A stretch of 38,211 nucleotides of DNA from Elusimicrobiota bacterium (GTDB taxonomy: Bacteria; Elusimicrobiota; Elusimicrobia; UBA1565; UBA9628), in contig JACQJQ010000111.1 of the NCBI GenBank assembly GCA_016204945.1, positions 1-38,211 on the forward strand, read 5' to 3'. Position numbers and translations under genes: made by a program. The notes below the pieces were generated by a model. That model was not told the origin of the DNA. It saw only the letters and a program-made list of their open reading frames with translations, and did no database searches. Positions 3,537 through 31,432 of this stretch are shown in pieces. The first letter of the stretch is position 1; every line of letters begins with the position of its first letter.

Positions 3537-4597
3537 CGTGAAACCTCTTGTCCGCCTCTTTGGCCGCAGCCGCCGAGGCCGAGTTCTTTGCGGTACTGGA
3601 TGATCGACGGCCGCGAGAGCGTCGCGCCGTAAAGCCTGTGGATCTCTTCCCGGAGCGCGTCATCGCCGGCTTCCGGGCGCTCGATGGCCAGATCGTAGAG
3701 GCGGTCGCGCATCATGGTCTTCCGGCTGGGCAGCAGGACCTTCAGGGGAATCTCCAGGCGCCAGGGCGTCTCGACCGACTTATTGCCGATGAGCCTGTTC
3801 AGCACGTCCGGCGACACCCCGAGGCGCGCCGCGACTTCGCGCTGCGTGAGCGGAACGCGCTTGTCGGGATCGCCGGTCGTCAGGTAGGCCGCCTGGGCGT
3901 CGATCAGGGCGTCCAGGACGCGGAACAGCGTCGTCTGCCGGAAAGTCAGAAGATCGACTTGGCGCATGAACTTTTCTACCTCGCCGGCCTGGCTCGGCGG
4001 GAGCGTGGTTCTCCACTCGGCGTATCGCGCCTCGTCCATTCGGTAGCGGCCCTTCCATATTTCGCGGTTGAAGAAGGCGAGAACCGGCCGGCCGCCTTCC
4101 AGCTCGACCCCGGCGACCGAGCTGTACACCGTGGCTGGCGCAGGGTTCCGGGCGGGCTCGAATTCGGAGCGGACATAGAGCCGGTCCATGAACTCGCGCA
4201 GCTTCCGCCCCTCGGCTTGCGATATGCCGCAGGCGTCTGCCCGTTCCTGGTCGGAGTAGGACTGGTCGTTGAGAAAATACTCGCGGAAATTCTGGAGTCC
4301 AACCCTTCTTATGAGCTGCGGGATTGCTCCGTCGCCATCGAGCAGTTCGCCGAGGCCCTCATCGGAAGTGCATAGACTGCGGCCTTCGAGCGAGCGCACG
4401 GCGTACTTTGAGCGGGGCAGGGGCTGGATCGTCAGCACACCTGCCTCGGAGAGGCGGCGGAAGAGCGGGTGCGCCTCGATTTCGCGGATGCGCGATTCCA
4501 AGGCATTCTCGGGCAGCTCCAGGAGTCGCGCCAGCTTGATCCCCGCCTGGGTGCGAAGGCCCGGCCGTCCGGCAACGGCAATCCGCGGCCCACTCAT
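3533..4597 (-). CDS. Divergent sigma-54 (RpoN)-like factor, 354 aa, start at ATG 4597
   Basis: ARLLELPENALESRIREIEAHPLFRRL resembles region I (RLLQLSTLELQQEIQEALEENPLLE); RQTTLFRVLDALIDAQAAYLTTGDPDKRVPLTQREVAARLGVSPDVLNRLIGNKSVETPW resembles the sigma-54 core-binding/HTH segment; C-terminal LSRPSIIQYRKELGL resembles a degenerate RpoN box (ARRTVAKYRE). ATGA overlaps with both neighbouring genes. Confidence 0.75.
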   Translation of the reverse strand: MSGPRIAVAGRPGLRTQAGIKLARLLELPENALESRIREIEAHPLFRRLSEAGVLTIQPLPRSKYAVRSLEGRSLCTSDEGLGELLDGDGAIPQLIRRVGLQNFREYFLNDQSYSDQERADACGISQAEGRKLREFMDRLYVRSEFEPARNPAPATVYSSVAGVELEGGRPVLAFFNREIWKGRYRMDEARYAEWRTTLPPSQAGEVEKFMRQVDLLTFRQTTLFRVLDALIDAQAAYLTTGDPDKRVPLTQREVAARLGVSPDVLNRLIGNKSVETPWRLEIPLKVLLPSRKTMMRDRLYDLAIERPEAGDDALREEIHRLYGATLSRPSIIQYRKELGLGGCGQRGGQEVSR

Positions 4598-4791
4598 GGC
4601 AGCTTGCCGTCCTTCTTGAATTTGGCGAGGAATTGGGCGAGGAATTCGGCATGCTGGGCCATCAGAGCGAGAAGTTCCTCGCGCTCCGCCGGCGTGGCTT
4701 TCCCAAGCAGCGCCGCGGCGCCGCTCAGACTTGAGGCCTTGGAGCCGACCTCGTGCATTACCGATTCGAGGGCTTCGGGGGTGTCGCTCAT
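4594..4791 (-). CDS. 65-aa helical protein, translationally coupled (possible DHp/HPt-like)
   Basis: ATGA overlaps at both ends (4594-4597 and 4788-4791); MSDTPEALESVMHEVGSKASSLSGAAALLGKATPAEREELLALMAQHAEFLAQFLAKFKKDGKLP. Confidence 0.75.
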   Translation of the reverse strand: MSDTPEALESVMHEVGSKASSLSGAAALLGKATPAEREELLALMAQHAEFLAQFLAKFKKDGKLP

Positions 4792-6140
4792 GGCTCGGTT
4801 GGCTTGCTGCCCGCGCCGCCATTGCTTCTCTTGAGCGAGGCGTACAGGAGCCGGGTCGAGATTCGGAGGTCGCCGAGGGTCTTGGCCTTGGTCCCGGTGT
4901 TCTCGGCGAGGCTGCGCCGGATGATGCTATCGACGAGACGATTCACCGTCGCGGTCAGGCCGTTCTGCAAGGCGAACTGGAACTGCTCCTCGCTCGCGAA
5001 GTCGCCGGCTTCCTCGGCCAGAGCCGTCGCGAAGAGCTTCTTCAGGTCGTCCAGCGTGACATGCCCCTGTTCACCGGCGCTCAAAAGATCGACCAGCTTC
5101 TTCAATTCGCGGACGTTGCCGGGCCAGGCATGCCCGCTAAGGAACGCCTTTGCCTCGTCCGTGAACGAGAGCCGGCGGCCGTCCCGCGTGAAGAACGCGA
5201 TCAGCGGGAAGATGTCGCGCTTGCGCGCGGCCAGGGGTTTGAGCTGGATGGTCAGGCCGTGGATGCGCTGGAAGAAGTCGAAGCGCAGCCGGCCGGCCTT
5301 GATGAGGTAGTGGAGATCCTCCAGCGTCGCGCTGACGATGCGGAATTCCGACTTCTCCGGCTTGTCCGAGCCCAGGGGATAAAACTCGCGTTCCTCGATG
5401 GCCTTCAGGAGCTTGGTTTGCATCTTGAGGCTCATCGCGCCGATTTCATCGAGGAACAAGGTCCCCTGGTGGGCGGACAGGAGCCTGCCCTTGTGGTTCT
5501 CCGCCGCTCCGGTGAAGGCGCCCTTCCGGTAGCCGAATAGCTCGGCCTCGAGCAGGTCTTCGGTGTAGGCCGAACAGTTGATCGCAACGAACTCCCCGGG
5601 CCGGTTGGACTTGTCGTGGATGATGCGGGCCAAGCTGGTCTTTCCAGTGCCGGACGGGCCGAGAATGAGCACGGGAATGTCGGATGCCGCGTACTTGACG
5701 GCCTCCGAGATGCTGGTGCGCGTGCCGGGCTCGACCGTCACGAACCGGTCCTCGAAGATGTCTTCGGCCCCGGCATTCCGGTGATTGCGGTACCGGGCCA
5801 GCACCGCGGGGACGTTCGTCTCTTCGTTTCCTTTCTTGTAGAAGTCCGGGCAGCCGAGCTCGTGGGCCTTTTTGACCATGCCTTCGGAGTCAAGTCCCGA
5901 CATGACGACCGGGTAGATGCCTTTGGATTTGGCGAGGGGGATCAGTTGGAGGCCGGACGCGGGGTCCTGGTCCGCCAGGTGGAGGTCGATGAAGCAGATA
6001 TCGTGCCCGCCGGCCTGGAGCTTCTGGCGGGCGCTGCCGGCGTCGTGGGCGAAGTCAACCTGGTGGCCGCCCAGGTGATTCCCCAAGACCTTCCTGGCTA
6101 GAGGGTCGTCTTCAACTACGAGGATCGAGAGTTTCGGCAT
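4788..6140 (-). CDS. NtrC-family response regulator / sigma-54-dependent activator (REC-AAA+-FIS-like HTH)
   Basis: MPKLSILVVEDDPLARKVL receiver; Walker A GPSGTGKTS; GYRKGAFTGAAENHKGRL (GAFTGA loop); Walker B GTLFLDEIG; WPGNVREL. Confidence 0.95.
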   Translation of the reverse strand: MPKLSILVVEDDPLARKVLGNHLGGHQVDFAHDAGSARQKLQAGGHDICFIDLHLADQDPASGLQLIPLAKSKGIYPVVMSGLDSEGMVKKAHELGCPDFYKKGNEETNVPAVLARYRNHRNAGAEDIFEDRFVTVEPGTRTSISEAVKYAASDIPVLILGPSGTGKTSLARIIHDKSNRPGEFVAINCSAYTEDLLEAELFGYRKGAFTGAAENHKGRLLSAHQGTLFLDEIGAMSLKMQTKLLKAIEEREFYPLGSDKPEKSEFRIVSATLEDLHYLIKAGRLRFDFFQRIHGLTIQLKPLAARKRDIFPLIAFFTRDGRRLSFTDEAKAFLSGHAWPGNVRELKKLVDLLSAGEQGHVTLDDLKKLFATALAEEAGDFASEEQFQFALQNGLTATVNRLVDSIIRRSLAENTGTKAKTLGDLRISTRLLYASLKRSNGGAGSKPTEP

Positions 6141-8470: not shown

Positions 8471-9574
8471 ATGCTGAGGAAATTGAGTCATCGAGGTCCG
8501 GGGCTTTCGTTACAACCGACGGACTGGAAATGGCTTTCAGCTCTGGAGGTCTACGGGATATTTGGCCTGGGCCAACTGGTCGGCCTGGGCCTGGTTAGGA
8601 CGTATGAACCCGCGAACTTGGTCCGGCTCTTCTTCAATGACATGGAGCGTCACGAGCATTGGATTCGCCGGGCAAAGCGGGTCAGAAAGCTCGTGGAGTC
8701 CGGTTACCTCCAAGCGCAGCGCTTTCCTCATCGGTTGCTGTTTTTCACCTTGACGGAGAAGGCTCACAAGGTCCTCCAAGAGGCGGGTCTCGCCAGGCTG
8801 CCGGGGTTCCGGCACCGCATCTCGGAGTCCATGGCCAACCATGAAACCCTGGTGGCCGGCGTCGGCCTGGTCCTTTCGGAACTGATGGGCCTTGAAGTCC
8901 TGACGGCCCGGGAACGGGTGGAGTGGAAAGGCCGGGGCGGGCGGCCGGCCACGGACTCCCGGATCGTCCCGGACCTCTGGATCGCGGACGACTCCGAGGC
9001 CAAGGGCGTGGAAATCGAGCGGGGCCCGAAGTCCAAGGAAGAGTATCGGGAAAGGTGGCGCACCATGCGCCTGATCCTGCCGGAGAACGGCGTCCTCCTT
9101 TATCTCACGGTCTGGCCCGGAGGCAAGCGCTTCATCAAGGAGCTGGCCCAGGACTACCGGGCGGACTTCATCCTGGTAGCCGAGCTCGACGAGTTCATTC
9201 AAGCGAAGGGGCGATGCCGCTTCGTGGGCTACGAGCCGGGGCGTTCTGTCACGCTGAAGGCCGCGTCCATCCCCTATGCGGGCGCCGCTTACCAGCGCGT
9301 CCCGCCGGCCGGCCCGCCAGCCCGCCAGGACGTGTCGGCAGGGGGCGGGCCCGCCGCCGGGCCGTTCGCTCCGCCTCCCCGCCGCGTGCGCGTCGGGGAG
9401 CTCACCCCGCCGCAACAGCGGCGGGGTCAGTCCGCTGCGCCGCTGGAAAGCGACGCCCGCCCCCACCCCCTTCCTCTACCGTCTCCTTCCCCATCCCCGG
9501 AAGGAGACCCGCGGGCGGCAAGCCGCCCGCTTGAATCGGCAGCACCTAGAACGACTGGAGGTATGGACCAATGA
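8471..9574 (+). CDS. Replication-relaxation (Replic_Relax-like) family protein
   Basis: WLSALEVYGIFGLGQLV...RVRKLVESGYLQAQRFPHRLLFFTLTEKAHKVL...NHETLVAGVGLVLSEL...RIVPDLWI...GVEIERGPKSKEEYRERW winged-helix plus endonuclease-like layout. Confidence 0.75.
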   Translation: MLRKLSHRGPGLSLQPTDWKWLSALEVYGIFGLGQLVGLGLVRTYEPANLVRLFFNDMERHEHWIRRAKRVRKLVESGYLQAQRFPHRLLFFTLTEKAHKVLQEAGLARLPGFRHRISESMANHETLVAGVGLVLSELMGLEVLTARERVEWKGRGGRPATDSRIVPDLWIADDSEAKGVEIERGPKSKEEYRERWRTMRLILPENGVLLYLTVWPGGKRFIKELAQDYRADFILVAELDEFIQAKGRCRFVGYEPGRSVTLKAASIPYAGAAYQRVPPAGPPARQDVSAGGGPAAGPFAPPPRRVRVGELTPPQQRRGQSAAPLESDARPHPLPLPSPSPSPEGDPRAASRPLESAAPRTTGGMDQ

Positions 9575-11337
9575 ACCAACTCGAATTCTTCGGCTGTATG
9601 GGCGCCTTCCTGGCGGGCTTGATCGCCCTTGGAACGGGCTGGAAGAAGACCGCCGCGCCCGTGATCGCGGCGGCCATCTTCTTCTTCGTGGCGTTCATGC
9701 CCTGGGCGACGTTCGACCTCCTTATGAAGGAGAACCGTCAGCTCCGGCGCTTGGCCGCGCCCCGCATGAAGGAGATCCATTGGGTCTGGTACGGCGTTTC
9801 CGGGGCCTTCTCCGTGGCGGTGGCGCTCGGCGTGCTCCTGATGAAGCCGCCGGTGGGAAAGCGGGAAGCCAGGTGGGACAAGCCGAGCGGGAGCTGGGAC
9901 ACGGGCAAGACCTTGGCGAAGCTTTTTAAGTCCTGCAAGGCCGACGCCGGCACCTTCCTTGGGATCGCGAACGGCAATACGAAGGTCTTCCTCAAGGACG
10001 AGGCCCGCGAGCGGCACATGCAGATCGTGGGGCCGACCCGGGCCGGGAAGTCCCAGCTCCTCCTGGCTCTCGCGGGCCAGGACATGCGGCGGGGCTTGCC
10101 GGTCTTCCTTATGGAAGCCAAGGGCGACCGGTCCGACTTCGACCAATTCCTCAAGCTGGCGACCCTGACGGGCCGGGAAGACCGCGTCCTGTACTTCAAC
10201 CCGCAGGATGCCCGCTCGATGAGCTTCAACCCCATCCGCATGGTGCCGGGCCAGGACTCGACCTCCATCGCCAACCAGATCGCCCGCGCGATCGGCCGCG
10301 AGCCCACGGCCTCCGGCGAGGGCCAGGATTATTACCGCTCCGTGGACTACGCGAAGATCCAGAACATGGCCGAGGTCTTCTGCCGGACGGGCAAGCAGTT
10401 CACGCTCAAGGACTGCTTCCACTACTTCACCTCGGAGGAGGCTCGGACCAAGGCGTTCCGCGAGTGCAAGGACCAGCGCCTGGTCCAGATGGTGAAAGAC
10501 GAGTTCAAGCGCAACCCGGACACGACCGCGCTCTCCGCCGCCTTCCAGCCTTGGACGACGGGCAGCCTGGGGCGGCTGCTCAACAGCTACGCGCCTACGA
10601 TCCGGCTGGAGAACATCTTTTAGGAAAGCCGCCTCGCCTATTTCGCCCTGCCCATCGGCCACCTTCAGGTCCTGGCCAACCCGCTCGGCCGGATGATCAT
10701 TTCGGGGCTGCTCTCCGTCGCGTCCTGGCGCCAGCAGACCGAGCCCAAGCCGGGCCCGGCCTGCGTGATCCTGGATGAGTTCGCCGAATTTGCGACGCCC
10801 GTGTTCGCTTCCTTCATCGCCACGGTCGGGTCCGCCCGGCTCTGGACGATCCTTTCGCACCAGGACCTGGGGCAGCTCAAGAAGGTGCAGGGCATGGACG
10901 CCGATGCCTTCGCCTCCGCCGTCTTCAACAACACGTCGGGGTGCAAGGTGTGTTTCCGGGCTCCGGACCCGGAGGACGCTGAGTTCTGGTCTTCGACCCT
11001 CGGCACCTACACCACCTACGACACAACCGAGCGGGTTCAGAAAGGCCTGTTGGGTCTGCAGCGCACGGGCGAGATGTCTCTGCGCGAGGTGGAGCACTTC
11101 CGCATCCACCCCAACGGCTTGAAGAACCTGGCGCCGGGCCAAGCGCTCATCTTCTCGCCCGGAAGCCAGGACTGCCTCGCCCGCACCGCGGGCGTGGCGA
11201 CCCTCCTGCGGGATATCGCGGTCCCGCCGCTCAGGACGCCGGCGGCACAGATGGAAGAGGGCTTGGACCTGGAGGCGGCCGTCCCGGCCGACCCCGGCGT
11301 GGCGTTCGTCCATGCCTCCGGGAGGGCGATAGCTTGA
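9571..11337 (+). pseudogene. VirD4/TraG-type coupling protein interrupted by in-frame TAG (10621-10623)
   Basis: Walker A GPTRAGKSQLLLAL in the first part; after TAG the same frame continues ESRLAYFALPIGHLQVLANPLGRMIISGLLSVASW...ACVILDEFAEFA (Walker B)...RLWTILSHQDLGQLKK. Confidence 0.85.
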
Positions 11338-14300
11338 AGCGCCTCTCCTTGGCAGTCGTCCTCTCCCTCGCCGGCCTCTCGCGGGCCCATGCGGCGGCCT
11401 ATTTCCAACAAGCGAGCCTGCCGCCCGCTTTTCCCGTGACCGCCGGGATCGACCGCGACTCCCTGGGCAATGTGTACGTGCTCGGCCAGCCGACCGGCTC
11501 CGCGACCTATTGGGTCGCGGCCTTCCGAGCCCCGGAGATGACGCCGCTCTTCTCCTTCGATACTGGGGTCTCGACGCCGGCCGCCTTCGCCGTAGAGGGG
11601 TCGGGCATCGTCGATGTGGCGGACCTCGGCGTCAGCACGACCGCCATGATCCTGCGCCGGTTCCAGAACACCGGTGCGTTCATGGGGCAGGCGGAGATCT
11701 CACTCTCGATGGGGCCGTATTACCCTCCCAAGACCGTGATGTCCGCCACGATAGACAAGTCGAATCGCTTGGTTCATATCACCAGCCAGCACCATGTGAC
11801 TTACTACTGCCTGATGTGCCTGGGCTGCGGGTGCCCTCCCAGCGGCACCAAGGGCTTCATCGACACGTTCGATTTCTCTGGGACTCTGGTGCGCACGACC
11901 ACCATGCCCGGCATCAGTGCCACCTACGGTTCCTGTTATACGCCGTCCAAGGTCTCGGCGGACCCGCAGGGCAATATGTTCGTGGCCGACAACACCTGCC
12001 AGCACGTTCTGAAGTATTCGCCCACGGGAGCGCTTCTCAACGACTGGGCGGCCTCGAAGTGGAGCAACTACTATCAGTTCACGTCGCGCGCCATGTGGAG
12101 CGACCCGGACTCAAACCTCTATATCGGCCAGCCGGTGTGCGGACCTTCGGGATGCCAACCCGGCGTCGTGAAGCTCGACGGCTCGGGCAACTCCCTCGCG
12201 CAATTCGCGGGGGACTCCAGCGCCGCCTGCGCCTGGGATGACCGGATGCTGTATCTGGCCGGACCGGCGACCGCCTCGCAGAGGCGCATGGTCTACAACT
12301 CGGCTCCGGCCGTGCCGGCCGAGATCGCGCCCATCGGCCCCGTCGTTCAGCATTCCTCGTCGACCGTCCTCGCGTGGCAGTACGCCTCCGATCCCGAGGG
12401 CGACCCGGTTGTCTACTCGGTGTTCCTCGGCAGTTCGCCGTTGGCTCTGACCCCTATCGGAACGACGCCGACGCAGAGCCTCGAAACCGCGTCCCTCGTC
12501 TTTGAAACCACCTACTACTGGCAGGTGACGGCGCAGGACCAGTATGAGGGCGTCCCGCTCCAGACGCAGCAGGCGCCGGTGGTGAGCTTCCGCCTGAGCC
12601 TTCAGAATTCGGCGCCGTCAGCTTTCGCGGTCGCGGGAGGAACCGGCACCGTCGTCACTCGGGACACCTCGGTCCGCCTGTCCTGGCAGCGGCCCTCGGA
12701 CGCCGACGGTGACCCCTTGGTCTACGACCTCACGTGGCGGGCCCCGGGACAAGCGGCGGTCACGGTGTCCTCGATCCCGGAGACCTCGCGGCTCATGTCG
12801 GGTCTCGCCTTCGGCGGCACCTACTACTGGTCGGTCCGCGCCCGCGACGTCTACGGAGCCTCTTCGTCGATGGCCGGAGGGCAGGAGCAGCCGTACTATC
12901 CGGTCTTCCGCAACGGCGCGCCTTCGATGCCGGTCTCTTTGAACGTCGCGTCGGTCTATTCCCTTCATACGGCTTCTCCGGCCGTCACCTTGTCTTGGTA
13001 TCCGTCCGAGGACCCGGACGGGGACCCGGTGACCTATCGGGCCGAGCTGGCCTCCGGCGTCGAGACGTGGAGCGTGGCTCTCGGCAGCGCGACCGCATTC
13101 ACTTTGCCGCTCGCCTACGAGACCACCTACTACTGGAGGGCTATCGCGCTCGATTCTTACGGCGGGGCTTCGACGGGTCCCTGGCAGAGTCTCGTGGCCC
13201 ATCTCGCGAACCGGGAGCCGGCCGCGCTCGTGTACACAGCCCCGTCGAGCCTCGTCACGCGCTCCACTTCAGTCGCGCTCTCCTGGCAGGACACCGGCGA
13301 TCCGGACGGCGACCCGTATGCTTACGCCCTGTCCATTTCGACGGACCCGGGAACTCTGACTCAGGTGCAGTCCGGGTTGCGAACCTCCTATTCGCTGGGT
13401 TTTCAGTACGGGACGACGTACTACTGGCAGGTCGCGGCAACGGATTCCTTCGGCGCTCGGGCTGAGGGTCCGGTGCAGAGCTTTCTGGCGCTGTTCAAGA
13501 ACGCGGTCCCCGGGATGCCAACCATCTTCTCGGGCGCTGGAACGAGTTTCCAGCACACGCTCACGCCTGCGGCCGTTCTCGATTGGTCCGCCGTCGGCGA
13601 CCCGGACGGCGACTTGACGGCCTACCGGCTGTGGGTCGGCGGCTCCCCGCAATCAATGGCCGTCGCGCAGGACGGGCCCGAGACCTTCTACAGCCTGCCG
13701 AGCCCGCAGCTCGGCGCGACCTATTACTGGCAGGTGAGCGCCTATGATCCCTACGGCGGCGCCGCGACGACTCCGGTGCAGGCCCTTCTCATCCAGCTCC
13801 AGAACGCCGCACCGACCGCGCCGGGGGCGCTGACGGGCTCGGGCCTGCTGTCTACTCGCGGCACCAGCCAGGTCCTCTCGTGGAGCGCCGCCTACGACTC
13901 CGACGGGGACGCCGTGGCCTATGAGTTCGCGCTCTCGACCAACGCCGCGGCCCTGCCGGTGGTGCGGGTATCGAGCGCCACGAGCTATACCCTGAGCTTC
14001 CAGTACGGCACGACCTACTACTGGCAGGCCGCCGCGCGGGACGGCTTCGGCGGCGTAAGCGCGACCGGGGTGCAGACCCTCCTGCCCGTGTTCCGCAACT
14101 CGGCGCCGACCGTGCCCTCGAACCTTTCCAAGACGGGGACGCTCTCATACCACGGCTGGTCGCCGTCGCAGTCGCTGTTCTGGCAGGACGCGGCCGACCC
14201 GGACGGCGACGCGTTTACCTACAGCGTCTACTTCGGAACTGACAGCGAGCGGCCTTCGCCGATAGGCTCGGCGCCGCTCGGCTACACCGTCTCCAACCTC

Positions 14301-17300
14301 GCGGTCAATACGGCCTACTACTACCGGATCGTCGCGACGGACATCTACGGCGCGGCCTCCGCGTCGCCGCTCAACTGGGTCTACTACCAGTTCTACAACA
14401 CCGCGCCGCGCGCCTTCGATCCAGTCGGCCCGACAGGATCGCTCATCACTCGGGATGCCAACCAAAGCCTTTCGTGGACGGCTTCCGGCGATCCTGACGG
14501 GGACTTGGTGACCTACCGCGTCTACGTCGGGACTTCTTCCGGTTCGCTGGCCGCGCTCACCGACACGACGCAGACCGCCGCGCCGTGGACGGGCCTTCCG
14601 TTCGGCGCGACCTACTATTGGCGCGTCGATGCCTTTGACGCCTTCGGGGCGACCACCGCCGCGAGCGGCGGCGTCCAGAGCTTCGGCTTGACCTTCCGGA
14701 ACTCCCCGCCATCCGCGCCGGGCTACGTCAGCACGGCGGCCGTCCACGAGTTCCACACGACGTTCCCGAGCATCGACCTCAGTTGGTCCGCGTCCCCGGA
14801 CGCCGACGGAGATCCCGTTTCCTACCGGTTGGACCTCGGGCTCAGCACGGGGAGCGCGCAGGCCTTCAGCCTGGGCGCGTCCACCTCGTTCAACCTGAAG
14901 CCGCTCTTCGAGACCACCTACTACTGGCGCGTCACGGCGGCCGACCCTTACGGCGGAGCCACGACCGGCCCGTGGACGAGCGCGCTGGCCCGCTTCGTCA
15001 ACCGCGCCCCGGCCGTTCCGGCCGTTCTGGGCGGCGCCGGTGTGAGCCGGCAACACACCCTGACGCCGAGCGTCAGCCTCTCCTGGTCAACCTCGGCGGA
15101 CCCGGACGGCGACCCCACGGCGTACCGCTTGGCGGTTGGGAGCGCGCCGCAAGGTCTCTCCGTCATTCAGGACGGGCCGTTGACCTCCTATGCGATCCCG
15201 GCTCCGCAGCTCGGGACGACGTACTACTGGCAGGTCAGCGCCTACGATCCCTATGGGGGCCTCGCCTCCACTCCGGTCCAGGCGCTGCTGGTCGAGCTTC
15301 AGTACGAGGCGCCCGCCGCGCCCGCGCCGCTGACGGGCACGGGGCCGCTCTCGACGCGCAACACCAGCCAGATCCTTTCATGGAGCAAGGCCGCCGACCC
15401 GGACGGCGACGCCGTGACCTATGAGTTCTCGCTCTCGACCGATCCCACGGCCCTGCCGGTGGTGCAGGCATCGACCGCGACAAGCTACGCCCTCGCCTTC
15501 CAGTACGGGACGAACTACTACTGGCAGGCCGCCGCGCGCGACAGCTTCGGCGCCGTCAGCGCGACCGGCGTCCAGGTCTTCCAGCCGTCGTTCCGAAACT
15601 CGGCGCCGACGGTACCGGCGAACCTCTCGAAGTCGGGGACGATCCCCTACCACGGCTGGTCGCCTTCGCAGTCCATCTTCTGGCAGGACTCGGCCGATCC
15701 GGATGGGGACTCGTTCACCTACAGCGTCCAGTTTGGCACGAACAGCGAGCGCCTGTCGCCGGTGACTCCGGCGTCGCTCGGGCACACCTTCCAGAATCTC
15801 GCCGTCAACACGGCCTACTACTACCGGATCGTCGCGACGGACATCTACGGGGCCGCCTCCGCCTCGCCGCTGAACTGGGTCTTCTACCAGTTCAGCAACG
15901 GCGCTCCGCAGGCGTTCGATCCCATCGGCCCGGCGGGGACTTTGGTGACTCGGAATGCCAACCAAAGCCTCTCCTGGACGTCGTCCAGCGATCCCGACGC
16001 GGACCTCGTGACCTACCGCGTCTATGTCGGCACGTCAGCGGGCGCGCTGGCCGCGCTGGCCGACACGACGCAGACCTCGGCGCCGTGGCCGGGCCTCGCT
16101 TTCGGCTCCACCTACTATTGGCGCGTTGACGCCTACGACGCCTTCGGCGCGACCACCGCCGCGAGCGGCGGCATCCGGAGCTTCGCCTTGGTCTTCAGGA
16201 ACTCCGCGCCCGGCGCTCTGCTCTACACGAGCACGGCCGCGGTCCGGGAGTTCCACACGCTCTCGCCCGAGCTGTCGTTGAGCTGGGCGCCTGCGGGTGA
16301 TGCCGACGGCGATACCGTCGCCTACCGACTGGACCTCGGCCTCAGCACGGGGAGCTGGCAGTCCACCGACCTCGCAGAAGCCACGGCGTTCGCGCTCAAG
16401 CCGCTGTTCGACACGACCTATTACTGGCGGGTCACCGCGGTGGATTCCTACGGCGCTTCTACTACCGGTCCGTGGTCGAGCATCGTCGCGCGCTTCGTCA
16501 ACCGCGCCCCGGCCGTGCCGTCCATCCTGAGCGGGGCCGGTGAGAGCCGCCAGCATACCTTGACGCCGAACGTCGTGTTCTCCTGGTCCGCCGCGGCCGA
16601 CCCCGAGGGCGATCCCGTCGTCTTCCGGCTGCAGGTCGGCACCGCGCCCTCGGCGCTCGCGCCGGTCCAAGAGGGCGCGCAGACCTCGTATCTCCTGCCC
16701 GCTCCTCAGTTCGGGACGACCTACTACTGGCAAGTTACTGCCTTGGACCACTTTGGCGCGACGGCGGCGACGCCGATGCAGAGCCTCGGGCTGTCGCTCG
16801 ACAACACGGCGCCCGCGCCGTTCTCTCCGTTGACCGGGACGGGCGCCCTCTCGACGCGCGAGACCACCCAGCTTCTCTCCTGGGAACCCTCGCAGGACGC
16901 CGACCTCGACCCGCTCGCTTACGGCCTCTTTCTTTCGAGCGGCGCCGCCGCGCCGGCTCTGGTCCAGTTCTCCACCACCACGAGCTTTCCGCTCGCGTTC
17001 CAGTTCGGGACGACCTACTACTGGCGCGTCGATGCCTTCGACGGCTTCGGAGGGACGACGACGGCGAACGGAGGGGTGCAGACCTTCCTCCCGACGTTCC
17101 TCAACGACCCGCCGGCTCCGCTGAACGTGACATCTCCGTTCAAGGGCTCCCCGGTCGTCAGCACGATGCACAACCAGGTCTCGCTCGCCTGGGAGCGGGT
17201 GACCACGCCTCAGGGCGATCCGATCACGTACACGGTCTATCTCGGGGAGTCTCCCGACTCCTTGCAGGTCCTGACCCGGATCAGCCAGGAGCAGGTCCCG

Positions 17301-17792
17301 GCGGGATTGATGGTGTCCGCGCGGCCGTCGCAGTTGCGTCCTCAAACCGAGGTGAGCGCCGATGGGAACACGGTCAAGCTGACGATCACGAGCCTGGACT
17401 ATTATCGGCGCTACTACCTTCGGATCACCGCGTCCAATCCTTACGGCTCCACGAGCCAGACGCCCTTGCAGGCCTTCTCGTTAAGCGCCGCGAACGGCTT
17501 TCCGAAAGCCTACAACTACCCCAATCCCTTCAGCCCCGGGCGCGGCGGGACGCGCATCGTCTTCAACGCCCCGCCTTCGGGCTATACCCGCGCCGTCGTC
17601 TCGGTCTACTCCGAGCTGCAGGACCTGCTGTTCCGTCGGGAGTACGCGAACATTCTGCCGGGCATCAGCGAAATCGTCTTCGAGGGCAGGGACAGGTACG
17701 GCCGCGCCTTCTTCAACGGCAGCTATATCTGCCATGTGCGCTTCGAGGGGCCGGACGATAAGGAGACCTTCTATCTCATGGTGGTGAAATGA
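11334..17792 (+). CDS. Giant secreted surface protein (2152 aa): N-terminal propeller-like region, about 17 fn3-like repeats, C-terminal YPNPF/FlgD-like domain
   Basis: TTG start overlapping the upstream stop; signal peptide MKRLSLAVVLSLAGLSRAHAA; recurrent SW...DPDGDPVTY...TTYYWQVxAxDxYGG; C-terminus YNYPNPFSPGRGGTRIVFNAP...VVSVYSELQDLLFRREY...GRDRYGRAFFNGSYICHVRF. Confidence 0.9.
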   Translation: MKRLSLAVVLSLAGLSRAHAAAYFQQASLPPAFPVTAGIDRDSLGNVYVLGQPTGSATYWVAAFRAPEMTPLFSFDTGVSTPAAFAVEGSGIVDVADLGVSTTAMILRRFQNTGAFMGQAEISLSMGPYYPPKTVMSATIDKSNRLVHITSQHHVTYYCLMCLGCGCPPSGTKGFIDTFDFSGTLVRTTTMPGISATYGSCYTPSKVSADPQGNMFVADNTCQHVLKYSPTGALLNDWAASKWSNYYQFTSRAMWSDPDSNLYIGQPVCGPSGCQPGVVKLDGSGNSLAQFAGDSSAACAWDDRMLYLAGPATASQRRMVYNSAPAVPAEIAPIGPVVQHSSSTVLAWQYASDPEGDPVVYSVFLGSSPLALTPIGTTPTQSLETASLVFETTYYWQVTAQDQYEGVPLQTQQAPVVSFRLSLQNSAPSAFAVAGGTGTVVTRDTSVRLSWQRPSDADGDPLVYDLTWRAPGQAAVTVSSIPETSRLMSGLAFGGTYYWSVRARDVYGASSSMAGGQEQPYYPVFRNGAPSMPVSLNVASVYSLHTASPAVTLSWYPSEDPDGDPVTYRAELASGVETWSVALGSATAFTLPLAYETTYYWRAIALDSYGGASTGPWQSLVAHLANREPAALVYTAPSSLVTRSTSVALSWQDTGDPDGDPYAYALSISTDPGTLTQVQSGLRTSYSLGFQYGTTYYWQVAATDSFGARAEGPVQSFLALFKNAVPGMPTIFSGAGTSFQHTLTPAAVLDWSAVGDPDGDLTAYRLWVGGSPQSMAVAQDGPETFYSLPSPQLGATYYWQVSAYDPYGGAATTPVQALLIQLQNAAPTAPGALTGSGLLSTRGTSQVLSWSAAYDSDGDAVAYEFALSTNAAALPVVRVSSATSYTLSFQYGTTYYWQAAARDGFGGVSATGVQTLLPVFRNSAPTVPSNLSKTGTLSYHGWSPSQSLFWQDAADPDGDAFTYSVYFGTDSERPSPIGSAPLGYTVSNLAVNTAYYYRIVATDIYGAASASPLNWVYYQFYNTAPRAFDPVGPTGSLITRDANQSLSWTASGDPDGDLVTYRVYVGTSSGSLAALTDTTQTAAPWTGLPFGATYYWRVDAFDAFGATTAASGGVQSFGLTFRNSPPSAPGYVSTAAVHEFHTTFPSIDLSWSASPDADGDPVSYRLDLGLSTGSAQAFSLGASTSFNLKPLFETTYYWRVTAADPYGGATTGPWTSALARFVNRAPAVPAVLGGAGVSRQHTLTPSVSLSWSTSADPDGDPTAYRLAVGSAPQGLSVIQDGPLTSYAIPAPQLGTTYYWQVSAYDPYGGLASTPVQALLVELQYEAPAAPAPLTGTGPLSTRNTSQILSWSKAADPDGDAVTYEFSLSTDPTALPVVQASTATSYALAFQYGTNYYWQAAARDSFGAVSATGVQVFQPSFRNSAPTVPANLSKSGTIPYHGWSPSQSIFWQDSADPDGDSFTYSVQFGTNSERLSPVTPASLGHTFQNLAVNTAYYYRIVATDIYGAASASPLNWVFYQFSNGAPQAFDPIGPAGTLVTRNANQSLSWTSSSDPDADLVTYRVYVGTSAGALAALADTTQTSAPWPGLAFGSTYYWRVDAYDAFGATTAASGGIRSFALVFRNSAPGALLYTSTAAVREFHTLSPELSLSWAPAGDADGDTVAYRLDLGLSTGSWQSTDLAEATAFALKPLFDTTYYWRVTAVDSYGASTTGPWSSIVARFVNRAPAVPSILSGAGESRQHTLTPNVVFSWSAAADPEGDPVVFRLQVGTAPSALAPVQEGAQTSYLLPAPQFGTTYYWQVTALDHFGATAATPMQSLGLSLDNTAPAPFSPLTGTGALSTRETTQLLSWEPSQDADLDPLAYGLFLSSGAAAPALVQFSTTTSFPLAFQFGTTYYWRVDAFDGFGGTTTANGGVQTFLPTFLNDPPAPLNVTSPFKGSPVVSTMHNQVSLAWERVTTPQGDPITYTVYLGESPDSLQVLTRISQEQVPAGLMVSARPSQLRPQTEVSADGNTVKLTITSLDYYRRYYLRITASNPYGSTSQTPLQAFSLSAANGFPKAYNYPNPFSPGRGGTRIVFNAPPSGYTRAVVSVYSELQDLLFRREYANILPGISEIVFEGRDRYGRAFFNGSYICHVRFEGPDDKETFYLMVVK
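13681..16740 (+). repeat. Higher-order tandem repeat, period about 1500 bp (five fn3-like domains)
   Basis: Homologous blocks at 13681/15181/16681, 14281/15781 and 14881/16381 are each offset by exactly 1500 bp with high nucleotide similarity. Confidence 0.85.
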
Positions 17793-19651
17793 TGCGAGTC
17801 CTTCTTCAACTGCTGGCGCTTTACCTGGGCGGCGTCCCCGTCTGCGCGCAGACCTCCGGCGCGACCCACCTGCTGACCCGCGGGCCGGGCGCGGAGGCCG
17901 CCGCCCTCGGCAATTCGGTCGTGCCCGTGGTGCGCGACCCCTCGGCGCTGTACTGGAACCCGGCCGGGCTGGCCAACGCGGGCGGGGCGGTCATGGGCGA
18001 GCATCTCTTCCTCTATGACGGCGCCCGCTACAACTTCGTCGGGCTCTCCGTGCCTTCGCGCCTCGGGGCCTTCGGCATGGGCGCCATCCAGCTCGAACGC
18101 GGGAACATCATCGCCCGGAATGCCATCGACGAGCCGGGAACCAAGGTCTCCAATACCCAGACGAGCCTCCTCCTGGGCTTCGCCCGCCGCATCGGCGATT
18201 ACTTCGCGGCCGGCGGCACCGCGAACATGCTGCGCTTTGATCTCGCCGGGAACAAGGACGTGGGCTTCGGCTTCGATCTCGGCGGCCAGGCGTTCCTGCC
18301 CTCCGACGATTTCGGGGCGCTGCGCCAGCCGTTCTGGTCCTTCGGGGCGGTGCTGAAGAACCTCCTTCAGCCCGAGTTGAAGCTCGCCGAGGAGAAGGAG
18401 ACCTTCCCGCGCGAACTGCGCGGAGGCGTGAGCGTCTCCTTCGCGGCGCTGTCGCGCGCCTCCTTGGGCTCCGGCGTCGTGCGCCATGACCGGGCCGAGC
18501 TGTCCACGTCCTTCCGGAAGGTCGCGGGCGAGCCGGGCCTGCATCCCGGACTCGGCTTCAGCTACGCCTACGAGAACATGCTGGTTTTCCGCCTCGGCTA
18601 TGACAAGGGTCTGGCCGCCGGCGTCGGGCTGCGCACGGGCGACGGCAAGTTCTGCGTGGACTACGCCATAGAGAACAAGCCCCTGTCCATGAACCACCGC
18701 TTCACGTTGTCCTATCGCTTCATCCAGCCCCAGCTTCCGGCCCGCAGGCCCGTCGCCGAGGAGCGGGACGAGGATTACGCCCGCGCTCTCGCGCGAGCGC
18801 AAGGCCTCTCCCAGGAGCATTCCCTGAGAGGCCAGGGCTACTTCAAGGAACAGGACTATCACAAGGCGCTCGAGCCCTTGCGTCTGGCCGTCCTGCTCGA
18901 TCCCGAGAGTTCGGACAAGGCTGCGTTCTACCGTCGGGCGCTTGAGGTCGCGCGCCGGGAGAAGCTGCGTCGGCTCAACGGGGAGATGAACGAGGCCTTG
19001 GCGAAAGGCGACGACGCCGCGACCTACAAATCGGCGGCTCGCATGCTTGGACTTAAGCCCGGGGACCGCGAGAGGCTCTTGGCGATTTTGAGGAGCGTCG
19101 CCGCGCGCGCCAAGGACTCCGCCCTTGAGCCCGTCGCCGCCGAAGTCTTTGCGGAGCGGCAGGTCCTGGCCCTGCGGATGGCTTCGGCCGGCCTCGATTC
19201 CGACTCCATGCGGCTGGTGGACAGCCTGGAACTGTGCCGGACGACTGGAACCGCGCTCGGCGTGGAGTCCCTCAGGAGCAAGGTCGCCGCCGCCGGGCAG
19301 GCTTCGCGGGCCAGGCTGGAGGCGGAAGCCGCCGAGGTGGAGCAGGCCGGCGCCCACGGCAAGAGCTACCGGGCGCTCGCCGCGCTGCGCCGCGCCTATC
19401 CGCAGGACGCGGCGCTTGAGAAGCGCGCGGACTCGGCGCGCAAGGGGCTGCGCGTCTCTTTGAGCCTCAAGGAAAGGCTCTACCTGCGCCGGCTCTACTT
19501 TTTGGCCGCGATCCAGTACGCCAACGGAAACGAGGAAGGCGCGCGCGACATGATCGCGGAGATTCTCCGGCGCGATCCGGCGGACGCCCCGGCCGACGGC
19601 CTTGAGGCCGCCATGGCAGGCGCGGTCGTGATGGAAGACGAAGTCAGATAG
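17789..19651 (+). CDS. PorV/PorQ-family outer-membrane beta-barrel protein with C-terminal TPR-like helical region
   Basis: ATGA overlap with upstream gene; signal peptide; GATHLLTRGPGAEAAALGNSVVPVVRDPSALYWNPAGLANAGG..., FRLGYDKGLAAGVGLRTGDGKFCVDYAIENKPLSMNHRFTLSYRF. Confidence 0.85.
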   Translation: MMRVLLQLLALYLGGVPVCAQTSGATHLLTRGPGAEAAALGNSVVPVVRDPSALYWNPAGLANAGGAVMGEHLFLYDGARYNFVGLSVPSRLGAFGMGAIQLERGNIIARNAIDEPGTKVSNTQTSLLLGFARRIGDYFAAGGTANMLRFDLAGNKDVGFGFDLGGQAFLPSDDFGALRQPFWSFGAVLKNLLQPELKLAEEKETFPRELRGGVSVSFAALSRASLGSGVVRHDRAELSTSFRKVAGEPGLHPGLGFSYAYENMLVFRLGYDKGLAAGVGLRTGDGKFCVDYAIENKPLSMNHRFTLSYRFIQPQLPARRPVAEERDEDYARALARAQGLSQEHSLRGQGYFKEQDYHKALEPLRLAVLLDPESSDKAAFYRRALEVARREKLRRLNGEMNEALAKGDDAATYKSAARMLGLKPGDRERLLAILRSVAARAKDSALEPVAAEVFAERQVLALRMASAGLDSDSMRLVDSLELCRTTGTALGVESLRSKVAAAGQASRARLEAEAAEVEQAGAHGKSYRALAALRRAYPQDAALEKRADSARKGLRVSLSLKERLYLRRLYFLAAIQYANGNEEGARDMIAEILRRDPADAPADGLEAAMAGAVVMEDEVR

Positions 19652-19660
19652 AGGGAGGTC

Positions 19661-19969
19661 ATGCGAATGAAAAGAGTGAAGACGAACGTGCTGGCCGGGC
19701 TGGGCGTGATGCTGATGAGCGCCCCCGCCTGGGCGGCCTACGGCAACGAGGGGCAGGTCGGGAGCTTCCTGGACTCGTCGGCGAACTGGATGGTGACGAT
19801 CCTGGGGCCGGGCATCTTCGTGATCGGCGTCATCATGGTCGGCATCAGCCTGGCCATGGGCGACCAGGACGCGATGCGCAAGGGCGGCTACGTGATCGGG
19901 GGCGGGACGCTCATCTTCCTGTCCCAGGCCGTGGTGGCGCTCCTGAAGCGGCTGGCCGGCGGGTTCTAG
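19661..19969 (+). CDS. VirB2/TrbC-like pilin
   Basis: 102 aa with signal-like N-terminus and two hydrophobic helices (GPGIFVIGVIMVGISLAMG; GGYVIGGGTLIFLSQAVVAL); position upstream of virB3/B4-like genes; SD GGGAGG. Confidence 0.75.
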   Translation: MRMKRVKTNVLAGLGVMLMSAPAWAAYGNEGQVGSFLDSSANWMVTILGPGIFVIGVIMVGISLAMGDQDAMRKGGYVIGGGTLIFLSQAVVALLKRLAGGF

Positions 19970-20061
19970 GCGTGCGGCGAACCCGGGAATTTTCGAGCGC
20001 CGGGGAAGTGGTCCCGCAGGTCATGCAGGCCATCTGGGACCTAAAAAGGAGGGTGATACGC

Positions 20062-20526
20062 ATGGACGACGGAAACGAGCAGGACAGGGCGCCGCAGGCG
20101 CCGGGGAGGCCGGGGAAACCCGCGATCCCCCAGGAGAACGAGGCGTGCGTCGTGGGGCGGATGGTCAACCCCCCGAAGTTCCGGGAGGGTAAGTCGGAAA
20201 AGGGGTCGCCCTGGAAGATGGCCCGCTTCATGGTGGCCGTCAACCGCACCTACAAGGGCCGCGAGGAGACGGACTTCATCCCGGTCGTGGTCTGGGAGGG
20301 ACTGGCCGAGGCGGTCCGGAACGCGGGCAAGGGGACCGCCCTGCGGGTGTCGGGGAGGATCAAGACCTACGAGGTCGAGGGCAAGCAGTACCGCTGGGAA
20401 CTCAGCGGGGAGGTCCTGCAGGTGCTGGACCTGCGGCCCCTGGCGCAGCCGGCGCCGGGAGACGGGAAGACGCAGGCCGCGGGCGAAGGCGTGGCGGAGC
20501 AGCAGGAGGAGCTGGTCCCGTACTGA
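20062..20526 (+). CDS. Single-stranded DNA-binding protein (OB fold)
   Basis: SD AAGGAGGGTGAT before ATG 20062; ACVVGRMVNPPKFREGKSEKGSPWKMARFMVAVNRTYKGREETDFIPVVVWEGLAEAVRN..KGTALRVSGRIKTYEV. Confidence 0.85.
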   Translation: MDDGNEQDRAPQAPGRPGKPAIPQENEACVVGRMVNPPKFREGKSEKGSPWKMARFMVAVNRTYKGREETDFIPVVVWEGLAEAVRNAGKGTALRVSGRIKTYEVEGKQYRWELSGEVLQVLDLRPLAQPAPGDGKTQAAGEGVAEQQEELVPY

Positions 20527-20532
20527 CGGACC

Positions 20533-20560
20533 GCCCCGGCGGCTTCGCCGCCGCCGGGGC
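20533..20560. repeat. Perfect 11-bp stem hairpin between the ssb-like and virB3-like genes
   Basis: GCCCCGGCGGC-TTCGCC-GCCGCCGGGGC; no T-tract follows. Confidence 0.6.
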
Positions 20561-20573
20561 ACACTTTGAACCC

Positions 20574-20870
20574 ATGGAGCCCATTCGCGTGTATAGAAAC
20601 CTGAACACCCCGGACAAGTTCTTCGGCCTTGAGCTGGCGGACGGCTGCGCCCTGCTCTTCGTCTTCTTCGCGGCCTTCATGGTCAACCGCGAGGGACTGT
20701 TCTCGAACGGGGTGCTCCTGCTGCTGGTGTACCTGGGCCTGCGGGCCCTCAAGCGCGGCAAGCCCCAGGGCTACCTGCTGGTGCTCGGGCGCTACGTCCT
20801 CATGAGCCGGTTCAAAGGGGTCCCGGCGTTCGGCGAGGCGGAGCATTCGGGTCCCGAGGGGTCGCGATGA
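20574..20870 (+). CDS. VirB3/TrbD-like membrane protein
   Basis: 98 aa; VYRNLNTPDKFFGLELADGCALLFVFFAAF...LLLLVYLGLRAL; directly upstream of the VirB4-like ATPase. Confidence 0.75.
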   Translation: MEPIRVYRNLNTPDKFFGLELADGCALLFVFFAAFMVNREGLFSNGVLLLLVYLGLRALKRGKPQGYLLVLGRYVLMSRFKGVPAFGEAEHSGPEGSR

Positions 20871-23302
20871 ACGGAGTCGAACTCGGCCTGACCCGGCTGC
20901 GAGCCGCCATGCACGACCCCAAGGCAACGCCCCTGCCGCAGTTTCTGAATCTGTGGAGGTTCTGCGGCGACGCTCTGGCCGGCGTCAACATGGACTTCTC
21001 CTCGGTCTACGAGCTGGACTGCGAGAACGTCTTTCTCATGGAGCCCGGGCGGCAGGAGCTTTTCACGGCCCAGTCGCGCTCGCTGCTCAACTCCCTGCCG
21101 CCGGACTCTACGCTTCAGTTCGTGGTCCAGGTCCGTCGCGGCGACCCGGGCGCGCTGAGCGCGCACCGCCAGGAGGCCCTGGCCGATAATACCGACGACT
21201 TCGGGCGCCTCATCATCGAAAAGAAGTGCGGGTTCATCGCCGGCAAGTTCACGCAGCGCCGCCGGTATCTGCTGTACGTGACCAGCCATCCGCGGGATCG
21301 CAAGGCGCCCATGACCTTCATCGTCCCGCGTTTCCAGCCGAACTGGCGCGACAACCTGCGCCGGTTCGAGGCAGCGCGGCTCAAGGAGCATCAGGCGCTG
21401 GAGCAGATCGTCTCCGAGCGCCTCCACAACATGGGCTTGCGCTTCAGAAGGCTCGACAACCAGGAGGTTCTGGACCTCTTGTTCGACCAACTCAACCCTG
21501 GACGGCCGAAGGGCATGGCGCTCAAGTCGCTCTCGGCTTCCCGCACCCTCCGGGAACAGCTCGTGCTTCACCCGCTGAAGGAAGAGTTCGACCACCTCCA
21601 GGTCGCGGGCTCCTTCTGCCGCGGGGTCTCTCTCCTGCGCCTGCCCGAAGTCTCGCACCTGGGCTACACGCAGAAGCTCATCAACAGCCTGTGGCCCGAC
21701 TGCGACCTCGTGCTCACCGTGCACGCGCTCGACACCGAGCAGTCCATCGCCGGGCTCAAACTCAAGAACAACATCACCCGGACTCTCGCCTTCTCGGCCT
21801 GGACCAAGAACTACGAGGCCGAGCAGAAGCACCTGGAATTGGATGAGCTGATCACGGAACTGCGCGGCTCGGCCCAGAAGCTCTTCCGGTTCGGCCTCTC
21901 GGTCCTGGTCCGCGGCGCGAGCGCGGATGACGTTCGCGAGCGCGCCGCCGCGCTGGTCGGGGCCTTCAACGACTTCGCCTCCGCCGAAGCCGCGGCCGAC
22001 GACATGAACCACTTCAGACTCTTCCTTCAGCCACTCCCGGGCCATGGGGAGCTTAACGACCGGAAGTTCTATATGCAGACCAACGCGCTGAGCGGCTTTC
22101 TGCCGCTCACCGGCACCTGGCGCGGCAGCCCCCGCAAGAAGATCCTCCTGGAGACCCCGCTCGGGGAGCTGGTGGGGCTCGATACCTTCGACGACGAGCT
22201 GCCGGCCAAGCACGGCCTCGTCCTGGGCACCACGGGTTCCGGCAAGAGCTTCACCACCAACTACCTCCTGAGCAACTTCCTGGCCGAGTCCGACAAGAAC
22301 CACGTCGTCGTCATCGACGTGGGCGGTTCCTACCGGAAGCTCGCCAGCTCCTTCCAAGGCGCCTATGTCGAGGTCCGCCTCGCCGAGGAGTTCGGCTTCA
22401 ATCCCTTTCCGCCTGCCGACGAGATCATGGAGAACGGCCAGTTCGACGACGACACGGTGGCCTACTTGAGCCTGCTCATCTCCCGGATGTGCCTGGGGGA
22501 AGGGCGCTCGGTCACGGTGGAGCAGAAGGGCCTCCTGGAGAGGGCCATCAAAGCGGCCTACGCCAAGGGCGAGGTGTTGCTTCAAAACGTCCGCGAGGAG
22601 CTGGCGCTCCTGGCGGTCGAGCAGCCGGCCGCCAAGATGTTCGCCGACGCGCTCGAAATGTGGACCGCCGGGATGTACGGGCGGCTCTTCAACCGGCCCG
22701 GAACCTTCGACATCGACAAGCGCCTGGTCGTCTTCGACCTCCAGAGCCTTGAGGACCACCCGGAGCTTCAGAGCGTGTACTTCTTCGTCATCCGCTCGAT
22801 CATCTGGAAGAAGCTCCAGGACCGGGGCCTCAAGAAGATCATCGCCATCGACGAAGGCTGGAAGTTCTTCAACGACGACGTGGGCGCCTCCTTGATCGAG
22901 AACCTCTACCGCACCGCCCGCAAGTTCAACGGGGCGGTCTTCTCGATCTCGCAGTCCCCGACCGACTTCCTGGAGACGCGGGCGGCCAAGGCCATCATCG
23001 CCAACAGCTACGTGAAGATCATCTTGAAGCTCGCCAAGGGCCACGAGCTGCTGCCGCAGTTCGACCTCAACGCCAACGAGATCGAGGCCGTGCGGCAGCT
23101 CCAGTCCAAGCCCGGCGTGTTCTCCGACGTGTTCCTCAAGTTCGGAGGACACTCCCTGATCGCCCGGATCGAGCCGAGCCCGCTCGACTACTGGGTCTGC
23201 ACGACCAATGCCCAGGACTGGCTCACGGAAGAGAAGGCCCGGGCCGCGAACCCCGGGCTCTCGCAGGCCGACTTGCTGCTCAAACTCGCGGAGGGACGAT
23301 GA
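20867..23302 (+). CDS. VirB4/TrbE/TraC-family T4SS ATPase
   Basis: Walker A GLVLGTTGSGKSFTTNYLLSNF, HVVVIDVGGSYRKLA, IIAIDEGWKFF, 811 aa. Confidence 0.93.
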   Translation: MNGVELGLTRLRAAMHDPKATPLPQFLNLWRFCGDALAGVNMDFSSVYELDCENVFLMEPGRQELFTAQSRSLLNSLPPDSTLQFVVQVRRGDPGALSAHRQEALADNTDDFGRLIIEKKCGFIAGKFTQRRRYLLYVTSHPRDRKAPMTFIVPRFQPNWRDNLRRFEAARLKEHQALEQIVSERLHNMGLRFRRLDNQEVLDLLFDQLNPGRPKGMALKSLSASRTLREQLVLHPLKEEFDHLQVAGSFCRGVSLLRLPEVSHLGYTQKLINSLWPDCDLVLTVHALDTEQSIAGLKLKNNITRTLAFSAWTKNYEAEQKHLELDELITELRGSAQKLFRFGLSVLVRGASADDVRERAAALVGAFNDFASAEAAADDMNHFRLFLQPLPGHGELNDRKFYMQTNALSGFLPLTGTWRGSPRKKILLETPLGELVGLDTFDDELPAKHGLVLGTTGSGKSFTTNYLLSNFLAESDKNHVVVIDVGGSYRKLASSFQGAYVEVRLAEEFGFNPFPPADEIMENGQFDDDTVAYLSLLISRMCLGEGRSVTVEQKGLLERAIKAAYAKGEVLLQNVREELALLAVEQPAAKMFADALEMWTAGMYGRLFNRPGTFDIDKRLVVFDLQSLEDHPELQSVYFFVIRSIIWKKLQDRGLKKIIAIDEGWKFFNDDVGASLIENLYRTARKFNGAVFSISQSPTDFLETRAAKAIIANSYVKIILKLAKGHELLPQFDLNANEIEAVRQLQSKPGVFSDVFLKFGGHSLIARIEPSPLDYWVCTTNAQDWLTEEKARAANPGLSQADLLLKLAEGR

Positions 23303-24959: not shown

Positions 24960-25228
24960 CCCAACCCGGAGCGTTGGAAATGAACGGGAACGGCCGCTGG
25001 CAGTACGGCGAGCGCGAGCTTACCTGCGGGGATCTCGTTGAGATCAACCTGGGGGGGCAGTGGTGCCGCGGCCGCATCGAGCACACGCCGCGCCACGGGT
25101 ATTACTTCCTCCTGCCGGTGAGCGACGCGCAAGCCATCGGCGTCTTCCACGACCGCGGCGGCGCCGTCGTTCTGCTCCATGAAGGGATGCCGGCGCGAAC
25201 GCCGGAACGCTCCAGGGTGTGGCCGTGA
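24956..25228 (+). CDS. DUF5348-like small protein
   Basis: NGRWQYGERELTCGDLVEINLGGQWCRGRIEHTPRHGYYFLLPV resembles my recollection of DUF5348; not searched. Confidence 0.5.
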   Translation: MTQPGALEMNGNGRWQYGERELTCGDLVEINLGGQWCRGRIEHTPRHGYYFLLPVSDAQAIGVFHDRGGAVVLLHEGMPARTPERSRVWP

Positions 25229-29758: not shown

Positions 29759-29760
29759 AC

Positions 29761-31398: not shown

Positions 31399-31432
31399 GC
31401 GGATGATCCAGGTTCGATTCCTGGAGGGGCCA
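31375..31432 (+). pseudogene. D-arm-less tRNA-Arg(TCT)-like remnant / attachment-site candidate
   Basis: GGCCCTAGAGCC-TCCGC-CTTCTAA-GCGGA-TGAT-CCAGG-TTCGATT-CCTGG-AGGGGCC-A; shares CGCCTTCTAAGCG and ATCCAGGTTCGATTCCTGG with the upstream tRNA. Confidence 0.75.

Follow-up and report, generated by a model that had tools for sequence, protein, structure and literature searches.

A stretch of 38,211 nt from an Elusimicrobiota bacterium (contig JACQJQ010000111.1 of assembly GCA_016204945.1; contig C9 of the 2.49-Mb draft genome), here called the window, carries a type IV secretion system (T4SS) gene cluster in which a giant gene for a secreted surface protein is embedded. This open reading frame (TTG start) was confirmed as real. 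The features of the cluster, with the evidence for each in brackets, are as follows.

9571-11337, + strand: VirD4/TraG coupling protein, split in two by a TAG within its frame (9571-10623 and 10624-11337, same frame; TraG-D_C 1.3e-10, T4SS-DNA_transf 5.5e-6)
11334-17792, + strand: giant secreted surface protein of 2152 amino acids (aa), with propeller head, about 17 fn3 domains and a C-terminal domain (CTD) like those of the type IX secretion system (T9SS)
11334-12299, + strand: its N-terminal domain, a signal peptide and NHL-like beta-propeller head, aa 1-322 (alignment, AlphaFold, PDB matches)
12300-17460, + strand: its stalk, about 17 fn3 domains of about 100 aa in a 5-domain super-repeat of 1500-nt period (repeat analysis)
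17466-17789, + strand: its C-terminal YPNPF domain, FlgD-Ig-like and T9SS-CTD-like (alignment with relatives)
17789-19651, + strand: PorV-family barrel with a C-terminal TPR-like region, 620 aa (NF033709, 99.3 bits with a cut-off of 90; weak TPR matches)
19661-19969, + strand: VirB2/TrbC pilin (TrbC 2.7e-12)
19972-20526, + strand: single-strand-binding protein inside the operon (SSB 2.9e-13; retained in relatives)
20574-20870, + strand: VirB3/TraL (TraL 7.5e-4, below cut-off; 55-73% identity in relatives)
20867-23302, + strand: VirB4 ATPase (TraG P-loop 2.3e-35, TraC_F_IV 1.6e-11)
23985-24959, + strand: VirB6/TrbL (TrbL 2.1e-4, below cut-off; synteny)
25219-25923, + strand: VirB8-like protein (weak DotI/IcmL match, 0.07; synteny)
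25920-26735, + strand: VirB9-position protein P0002 (position between VirB8 and VirB10; no Pfam match)
27228-27956, + strand: VirB10/TrbI (TrbI 1.3e-18)

With VirB4, VirD4, VirB2, VirB3, VirB6, VirB8 and VirB10 in one cluster, the window holds a T4SS; VirB3, VirB6 and VirB8 gave weak profile scores but are supported by synteny, and an uncharacterised conserved gene lies between VirB4 and VirB6. The barrel protein reaches the PorV/PorQ family model (NF033709) but neither the PorV nor the PorQ equivalog, and is therefore treated as a family member and not as PorV itself; an alternative in-phase ATG at 17792 is possible for its gene. The single-strand-binding protein gene between VirB2 and VirB3 evolves fast (about 30% identity among relatives) yet is retained.

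A preliminary description of this DNA had the giant gene start in a TTGA overlap with the coupling-protein stop, end in an ATGA overlap with a PorV-like gene and precede candidates for VirB2-VirB10. Both overlaps were confirmed: the TTG start, with GGGAGGG immediately 5' of it, shares 4 nt with the TGA of the C-terminal VirD4 frame (11335-11337), and the giant gene's own TGA (17790-17792) shares 4 nt with the PorV-family ATG at 17789. VirB2, VirB3, VirB4, VirB6, VirB8 and VirB10 were likewise found downstream. The upstream gene is a coupling protein, as described, but its frame is not intact, being split by the TAG at 10621-10623. In relatives VirD4 is one uninterrupted frame of about 560-620 aa, with sense codons at the TAG position in L023, L026, L027, L031, L033, L034 and L036-L039, and a conserved TAG recoding in VirD4 was rejected on that ground. 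No promoter- or terminator-like sites above chance were detected in 9400-20900, which is compatible with a single polycistron, although weak as evidence.

The description as an fn3-repeat protein holds for the stalk of about 17 units but not for residues 1-322, which form a beta-propeller. This head follows a signal peptide (MKRLSLAVVLSLAGLSRAHA-A) identified by eye, is conserved at 17 loci (16 of them in the head-domain alignment) and carries a conserved cysteine cluster (C159/C162/C165/C167). Its AlphaFold model is all-beta (pLDDT 84), and the closest PDB structures are NHL beta-propellers (Brat, TRIM2/3; E 9e-11). Across the whole protein, Pfam fn3 was matched at 5.8e-39, Ig_Rha78A_N was also matched, and no Big-family domain scored above the Pfam cut-off. 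The fn3 repeat motif recurs 17 times at a spacing of about 100 aa. Each stalk unit is on average 54% identical to the fifth unit after it, as against about 36% at most other spacings, and the stalk DNA, shifted by 1500 nt, matches itself over 1978 nt with 75% nucleotide identity. Thus, the fn3 array grew by 5-domain blocks. In relatives its full length is 842 to 2546 aa, corresponding to about 3 to about 20 fn3 units. The last 100 residues hold the YPNPF motif and an FlgD-Ig-like fold, and this CTD is likely the signal for secretion and anchoring.

Conservation of the transfer-linked cassette

The survey covered 341 genomes of the phylum Elusimicrobiota. The head domain is present in 15 of them, at 17 loci, all within one order (Elusimicrobia/Elusimicrobiota metagenome-assembled genomes), and none of the 341 carries it outside a T4SS locus. 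The placement seen in the preliminary description, which had suggested a synteny survey, recurs: wherever the sequence before the head protein is visible (16 loci), VirD4 is directly upstream of it, and PorV is next downstream at 12 of 12 with visible following sequence. The 4-nt overlap with VirD4 recurs at 15 of the 16 (L031 has a short gap), and the arrangement is therefore not due to chance.

A total of 24 genomes encode VirB4 relatives, with identities down to 31%. Six loci (G064, G007, G298, G300, G301 and G002) are cut by contig ends and not assessable; at 20 of 20 assessable loci, a PorV-family gene comes after that of a secreted protein with this kind of CTD at its end. The front half of that secreted protein varies. 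In the window type it is an NHL propeller with fn3. A Kelch propeller with fn3 and CTD follows VirD4 in L102 (2203 aa) and recurs in L108 (1296 aa), whose CTD is the weakest case (FlgD_ig 4e-4, below cut-off). L101 has CarboxypepD_reg and fn3, and L107 has Big_9/fn3 with a very weak match to a phage propeller receptor-binding protein. Four loci (G030, G062 and, probably, G004:C74 and G050) instead have two proteins, a phage-tail-collar-like one and, after it, a mini protein of 281-294 aa with a single fn3 and the CTD. Pfam Collar scored above cut-off in G030 and G062, while G004:C74 and G050 are linked by sequence similarity only. The collar-like proteins beside the mini CTD protein are:

L069, 4298-6523: phage-tail-collar-like protein (Pfam Collar above cut-off)
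L064, 2617-4023: phage-tail-collar-like protein (Pfam Collar above cut-off)
L062, 13457-14878: phage-tail-collar-like protein (similarity)
L100, 11245-12207: phage-tail-collar-like protein (similarity)

The giant protein as a universal T4SS part was rejected, as these four related loci have the mini and collar-like proteins instead. The cassette has a different site in L062 and L064, between VirB8 and the VirB9-position protein instead of next to VirB2, so it is kept even when its place in the operon shifts. Judged from these comparisons, the cassette is the constant and the giant form is one variant of it.

The giant protein is under purifying selection (dN/dS about 0.2 in close pairs). CTD distances correlate with those of PorV (r 0.955) and VirB4 (r 0.907), and PorV distances with those of VirB4 (r 0.95); values for VirB2 and VirB3 against VirB4 are comparable (r 0.92 and 0.91), and the head domain tracks VirB4 less closely (r 0.78). 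Common descent of the hosts accounts for part of these correlations. Genomes of the same order hold 6-34 PorV-family proteins each, whereas 14 control genomes gave one weak match. In a maximum-likelihood tree, 19 T4SS-linked PorVs and 19 sampled chromosomal PorVs fall on opposite sides of one branch (support 100/97), and the T4SS-linked proteins are thus a dedicated lineage. A search of plasmid records for the cassette PorV returned one weak match only (Rhodothermus), i.e. none at that search sensitivity.

The mobile element and the probable export route

The window also encodes a candidate integrase for an integrative and conjugative element (ICE):

29731-31398, + strand: large serine recombinase (Resolvase 1.9e-22, Recombinase 7.5e-15)

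The same genome contains a second copy (G000:C126, L022), a T4SS cluster with its own serine recombinase and an 842-aa propeller-fn3 protein; its giant protein is 48% and its VirB4 65% identical to that of the window. Between G000:C126 and G004:C41, from two species, 12.8 kb are common at 92.6% nucleotide identity, whereas the SprA-like gene of the two hosts is 79% identical. Hence, the element moves between species as a block. A TrwC relaxase (8.6e-60) accompanies the cassette-bearing T4SS of L062.

Several neighbouring genes were recorded in passing. A winged helix-turn-helix protein (8471-9574), directly upstream of VirD4 and conserved in the element family, is a candidate relaxase or accessory factor; its homologue in L031 has a sub-threshold Replic_Relax match (0.0016). 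An RpoN-like protein (Sigma54_DBD 1.2e-9) and an NtrC-type activator (5e-56) are adjacent at 3533-6140 (- strand), with homologues beside the T4SS in L027, L029, L035 and L039; the pair may be an element-borne sigma-54 switch. A trypsin-like (HtrA-type) serine protease lies at 31403-32401, directly after the recombinase.

The host encodes an SprA/Sov-type translocon at G000:C80, a homologue of an SprA_N-bearing protein of 1.86 kaa, and an SprA-like translocon is present in 21 of 25 relatives, host included. The giant protein is probably exported through this chromosomal translocon, and its secretion would then be T9SS- and PorV-dependent. T9SS shuttles fix the final localization of their cargo, putative adhesins included; by analogy with cognate CTD/shuttle pairs, the CTD may be anchored by its own PorV (PMC12618676, PMC9143113).

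A proposed adhesin cassette and its alternatives

Gene order and protein architecture make it likely that an Elusimicrobiota ICE here carries a T4SS-dedicated, PorV-anchored surface cassette in which the giant protein acts as adhesin subunit, binding recipient cells. The protein would be translated with VirD4 and PorV from one polycistron, as suggested by the 4-nt overlaps, and exported to the periplasm by the Sec pathway, in keeping with its signal peptide. The YPNPF CTD would then direct the crossing of the outer membrane, probably via the SprA-like translocon, and the element's own PorV-family barrel would hold the CTD, its TPR-like tail possibly tying the barrel to the T4SS. From this anchor, the roughly 17 fn3 domains, which at 3.5-4 nm apiece make a stalk of some 60-70 nm when fully stretched, would project the NHL-like propeller from the donor surface, where it may bind a recipient receptor and bring the cells together for DNA transfer. 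The stalk varies in length through duplication of 5-domain blocks, and heads are swapped between elements. Such variation of the head above an unchanging anchor, phage-tail-like alternatives included, is what one would expect of a recognition module under variable selection.

The preliminary description had proposed a mating-pair adhesin or long surface fibre, dedicated to DNA transfer and not housekeeping cargo. The dedication is well supported by strict synteny, co-divergence with VirB4, the T4SS-specific PorV lineage and the cassette at every assessable locus. Propeller, fn3 stalk, CTD/PorV anchor and exchangeable heads fit the adhesin, whose function is still an inference. Related elements without the gene, which would have counted against the proposal, exist in part: G030, G050, G004:C74 and G062 are without the giant protein, yet keep the mini fn3-CTD protein, PorV and the collar-like protein in its stead.

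Several observations weigh against the adhesin cassette. The adhesin role follows from architecture, and propellers can also be enzymes or scaffolds. The CTD of the window reaches neither T9SS sorting model (TIGR04183, PF18962) above cut-off, and a PDB fold search with it was unspecific, with FlgD and PorZ among weak Ig-fold matches. In favour of the cassette, the homologous CTD in L106 passes TIGR04183 (T9SS type A; 24.7 with a cut-off of 23), the only CTD homologue to do so, and that of L069 matches CHU_C (PF13585) at 3e-5, below cut-off. The 19 chromosomal PorVs in the tree are a sample of many, mostly top NF033709 scores, and intermediates may have been missed. No canonical relaxase was recognized by Pfam search among the window proteins. 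The TAG in VirD4 may mark a defective copy or a wrong base. Finally, a PorV gene paired with one for a large CTD protein is also found away from T4SS loci (e.g. L063); such a pair by itself is no sign of conjugation.

These pairs, and the abundance of PorV-family genes, are what could be said for host-colonization or surface-fibre cargo carried along by the element, its place in the operon being happenstance. Against cargo stand the strict position, the 4-nt overlaps, the absence of the head domain outside T4SS loci in the survey, the T4SS-specific PorV lineage and the retention of the cassette when its position moves; cargo or chance placement was rejected on synteny, selection and the PorV tree, and we regard it as highly improbable. 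A structural role deserves more weight, although we still think it unlikely: the PorV-TPR barrel and the CTD protein would be outer-membrane parts of the T4SS (a channel or pilus-exit collar), and the fn3 domains and propeller a scaffold or pilus sheath and not a receptor binder. PorV and CTD are indeed conserved and co-divergent with VirB4 to the same extent as VirB2 and VirB3, no assessable locus is without the cassette, the sole VirB9 candidate (P0002) matches no family, and minimal one-fn3 versions exist. However, exchangeable, hypervariable heads on stalks of 3 to about 20 fn3 domains are ill-suited to a fixed structural part, and the mini CTD proteins are accompanied by a separate collar-domain protein, as if the head function had moved to another gene. 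It is less probable again that the protein is exported by the T4SS itself, coating pili or flagella, slowing motility and aiding mating, as does RSP of IncHI plasmids. RSP, a large Ig-domain protein, leaves the cell through the T4SS of its plasmid and is required for conjugation to be efficient (PMC6764697), and genes for related Big proteins lie in tra regions (PMC8730810); here, the Sec signal, T9SS-like CTD and adjoining dedicated PorV point instead to the PorV route and to anchoring.

A broader proposal can be advanced tentatively, with somewhat less than even confidence. Elusimicrobiota T4SSs could be a distinct class of conjugation machine that has incorporated, among its core parts, an anchoring module of type IX style. 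On a T4SS-specific PorV-TPR barrel, this module would display exchangeable receptor binders, either propeller-on-stalk or phage-tail-like, and these would determine the range of recipients. In that case, conjugation would rely on two secretion pathways together, the T4SS for DNA and SprA/PorV for the adhesin. Recipient choice by conjugative elements is largely unknown beyond a few model plasmids. Here, the DNA-transfer operons of a whole phylum of uncultured diderms appear to keep a recognizable place for an adhesin, in which the anchor (CTD and PorV-TPR) is constant and the heads can be swapped. The cassette would make recipient range accessible to testing and connect conjugation by T4SS with surface display of the T9SS type. 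A gene for a CTD protein with that of PorV-TPR next in line, beside VirB2 or VirB9/VirB10, may serve as a marker for such systems elsewhere.

Comparison with known systems

No paper joining T9SS or PorV with conjugation, or describing Elusimicrobiota ICEs or a PorV/CTD display cassette bound to a T4SS and conserved throughout the phylum, was found in the openly accessible literature (subscription papers and preprints excluded). T9SS cargo proteins that have a shuttle of their own (CTD/PorV in type A, CTD/PorP-SprF in type B) share with the cassette a C-terminal sorting domain beside the cognate shuttle gene, but they lack T4SS linkage and belong to Bacteroidota, not Elusimicrobiota. The PorV of the T9SS is not known to carry a C-terminal TPR-like region.

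In plasmid R64, the recognition part of PilV is subject to switching. PilV of IncI plasmids (TP114, R64) is, like the protein proposed here, a conjugation adhesin with exchangeable recognition parts (TP114: PMC9045228). Unlike the giant protein, to which it is unrelated, PilV sits at the tip of a type IV pilus, and the switching of its C-termini takes place inside a single plasmid. The TIE thioester adhesin (p34) of Bacillus subtilis plasmid pLS20 is needed for efficient mating in liquid (PMC8092201) and is also a multi-domain surface adhesin encoded by a conjugative plasmid; however, it belongs to a monoderm, has a thioester head with Cna domains, and is unrelated in fold and anchoring.

RSP/RSP2 and the related Big proteins of IncHI, IncA/C and IncP2 plasmids are large secreted proteins of Ig-fold repeats. 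Their genes lie within or close to tra regions, and conjugation requires them to be efficient; RSP of IncHI plasmids binds flagella and pili (PMC6764697, PMC8730810). RSP, which is T4SS-exported, went undetected in the outer membrane, and the parts of these papers considered mention neither a PorV partner nor a CTD, whereas the window protein combines a propeller head, fn3 stalk, CTD and dedicated PorV. It may nevertheless act like RSP without being a Big/RSP family member. The preliminary description was aware of no equivalent, which overlooks these Ig-domain proteins and the pLS20 adhesin but holds for the PorV/CTD anchor, reported for none of them. As an idea, the conjugation adhesin is not new, and functional analogues exist in the Big proteins of IncHI and IncA/C plasmids and the TIE adhesins.

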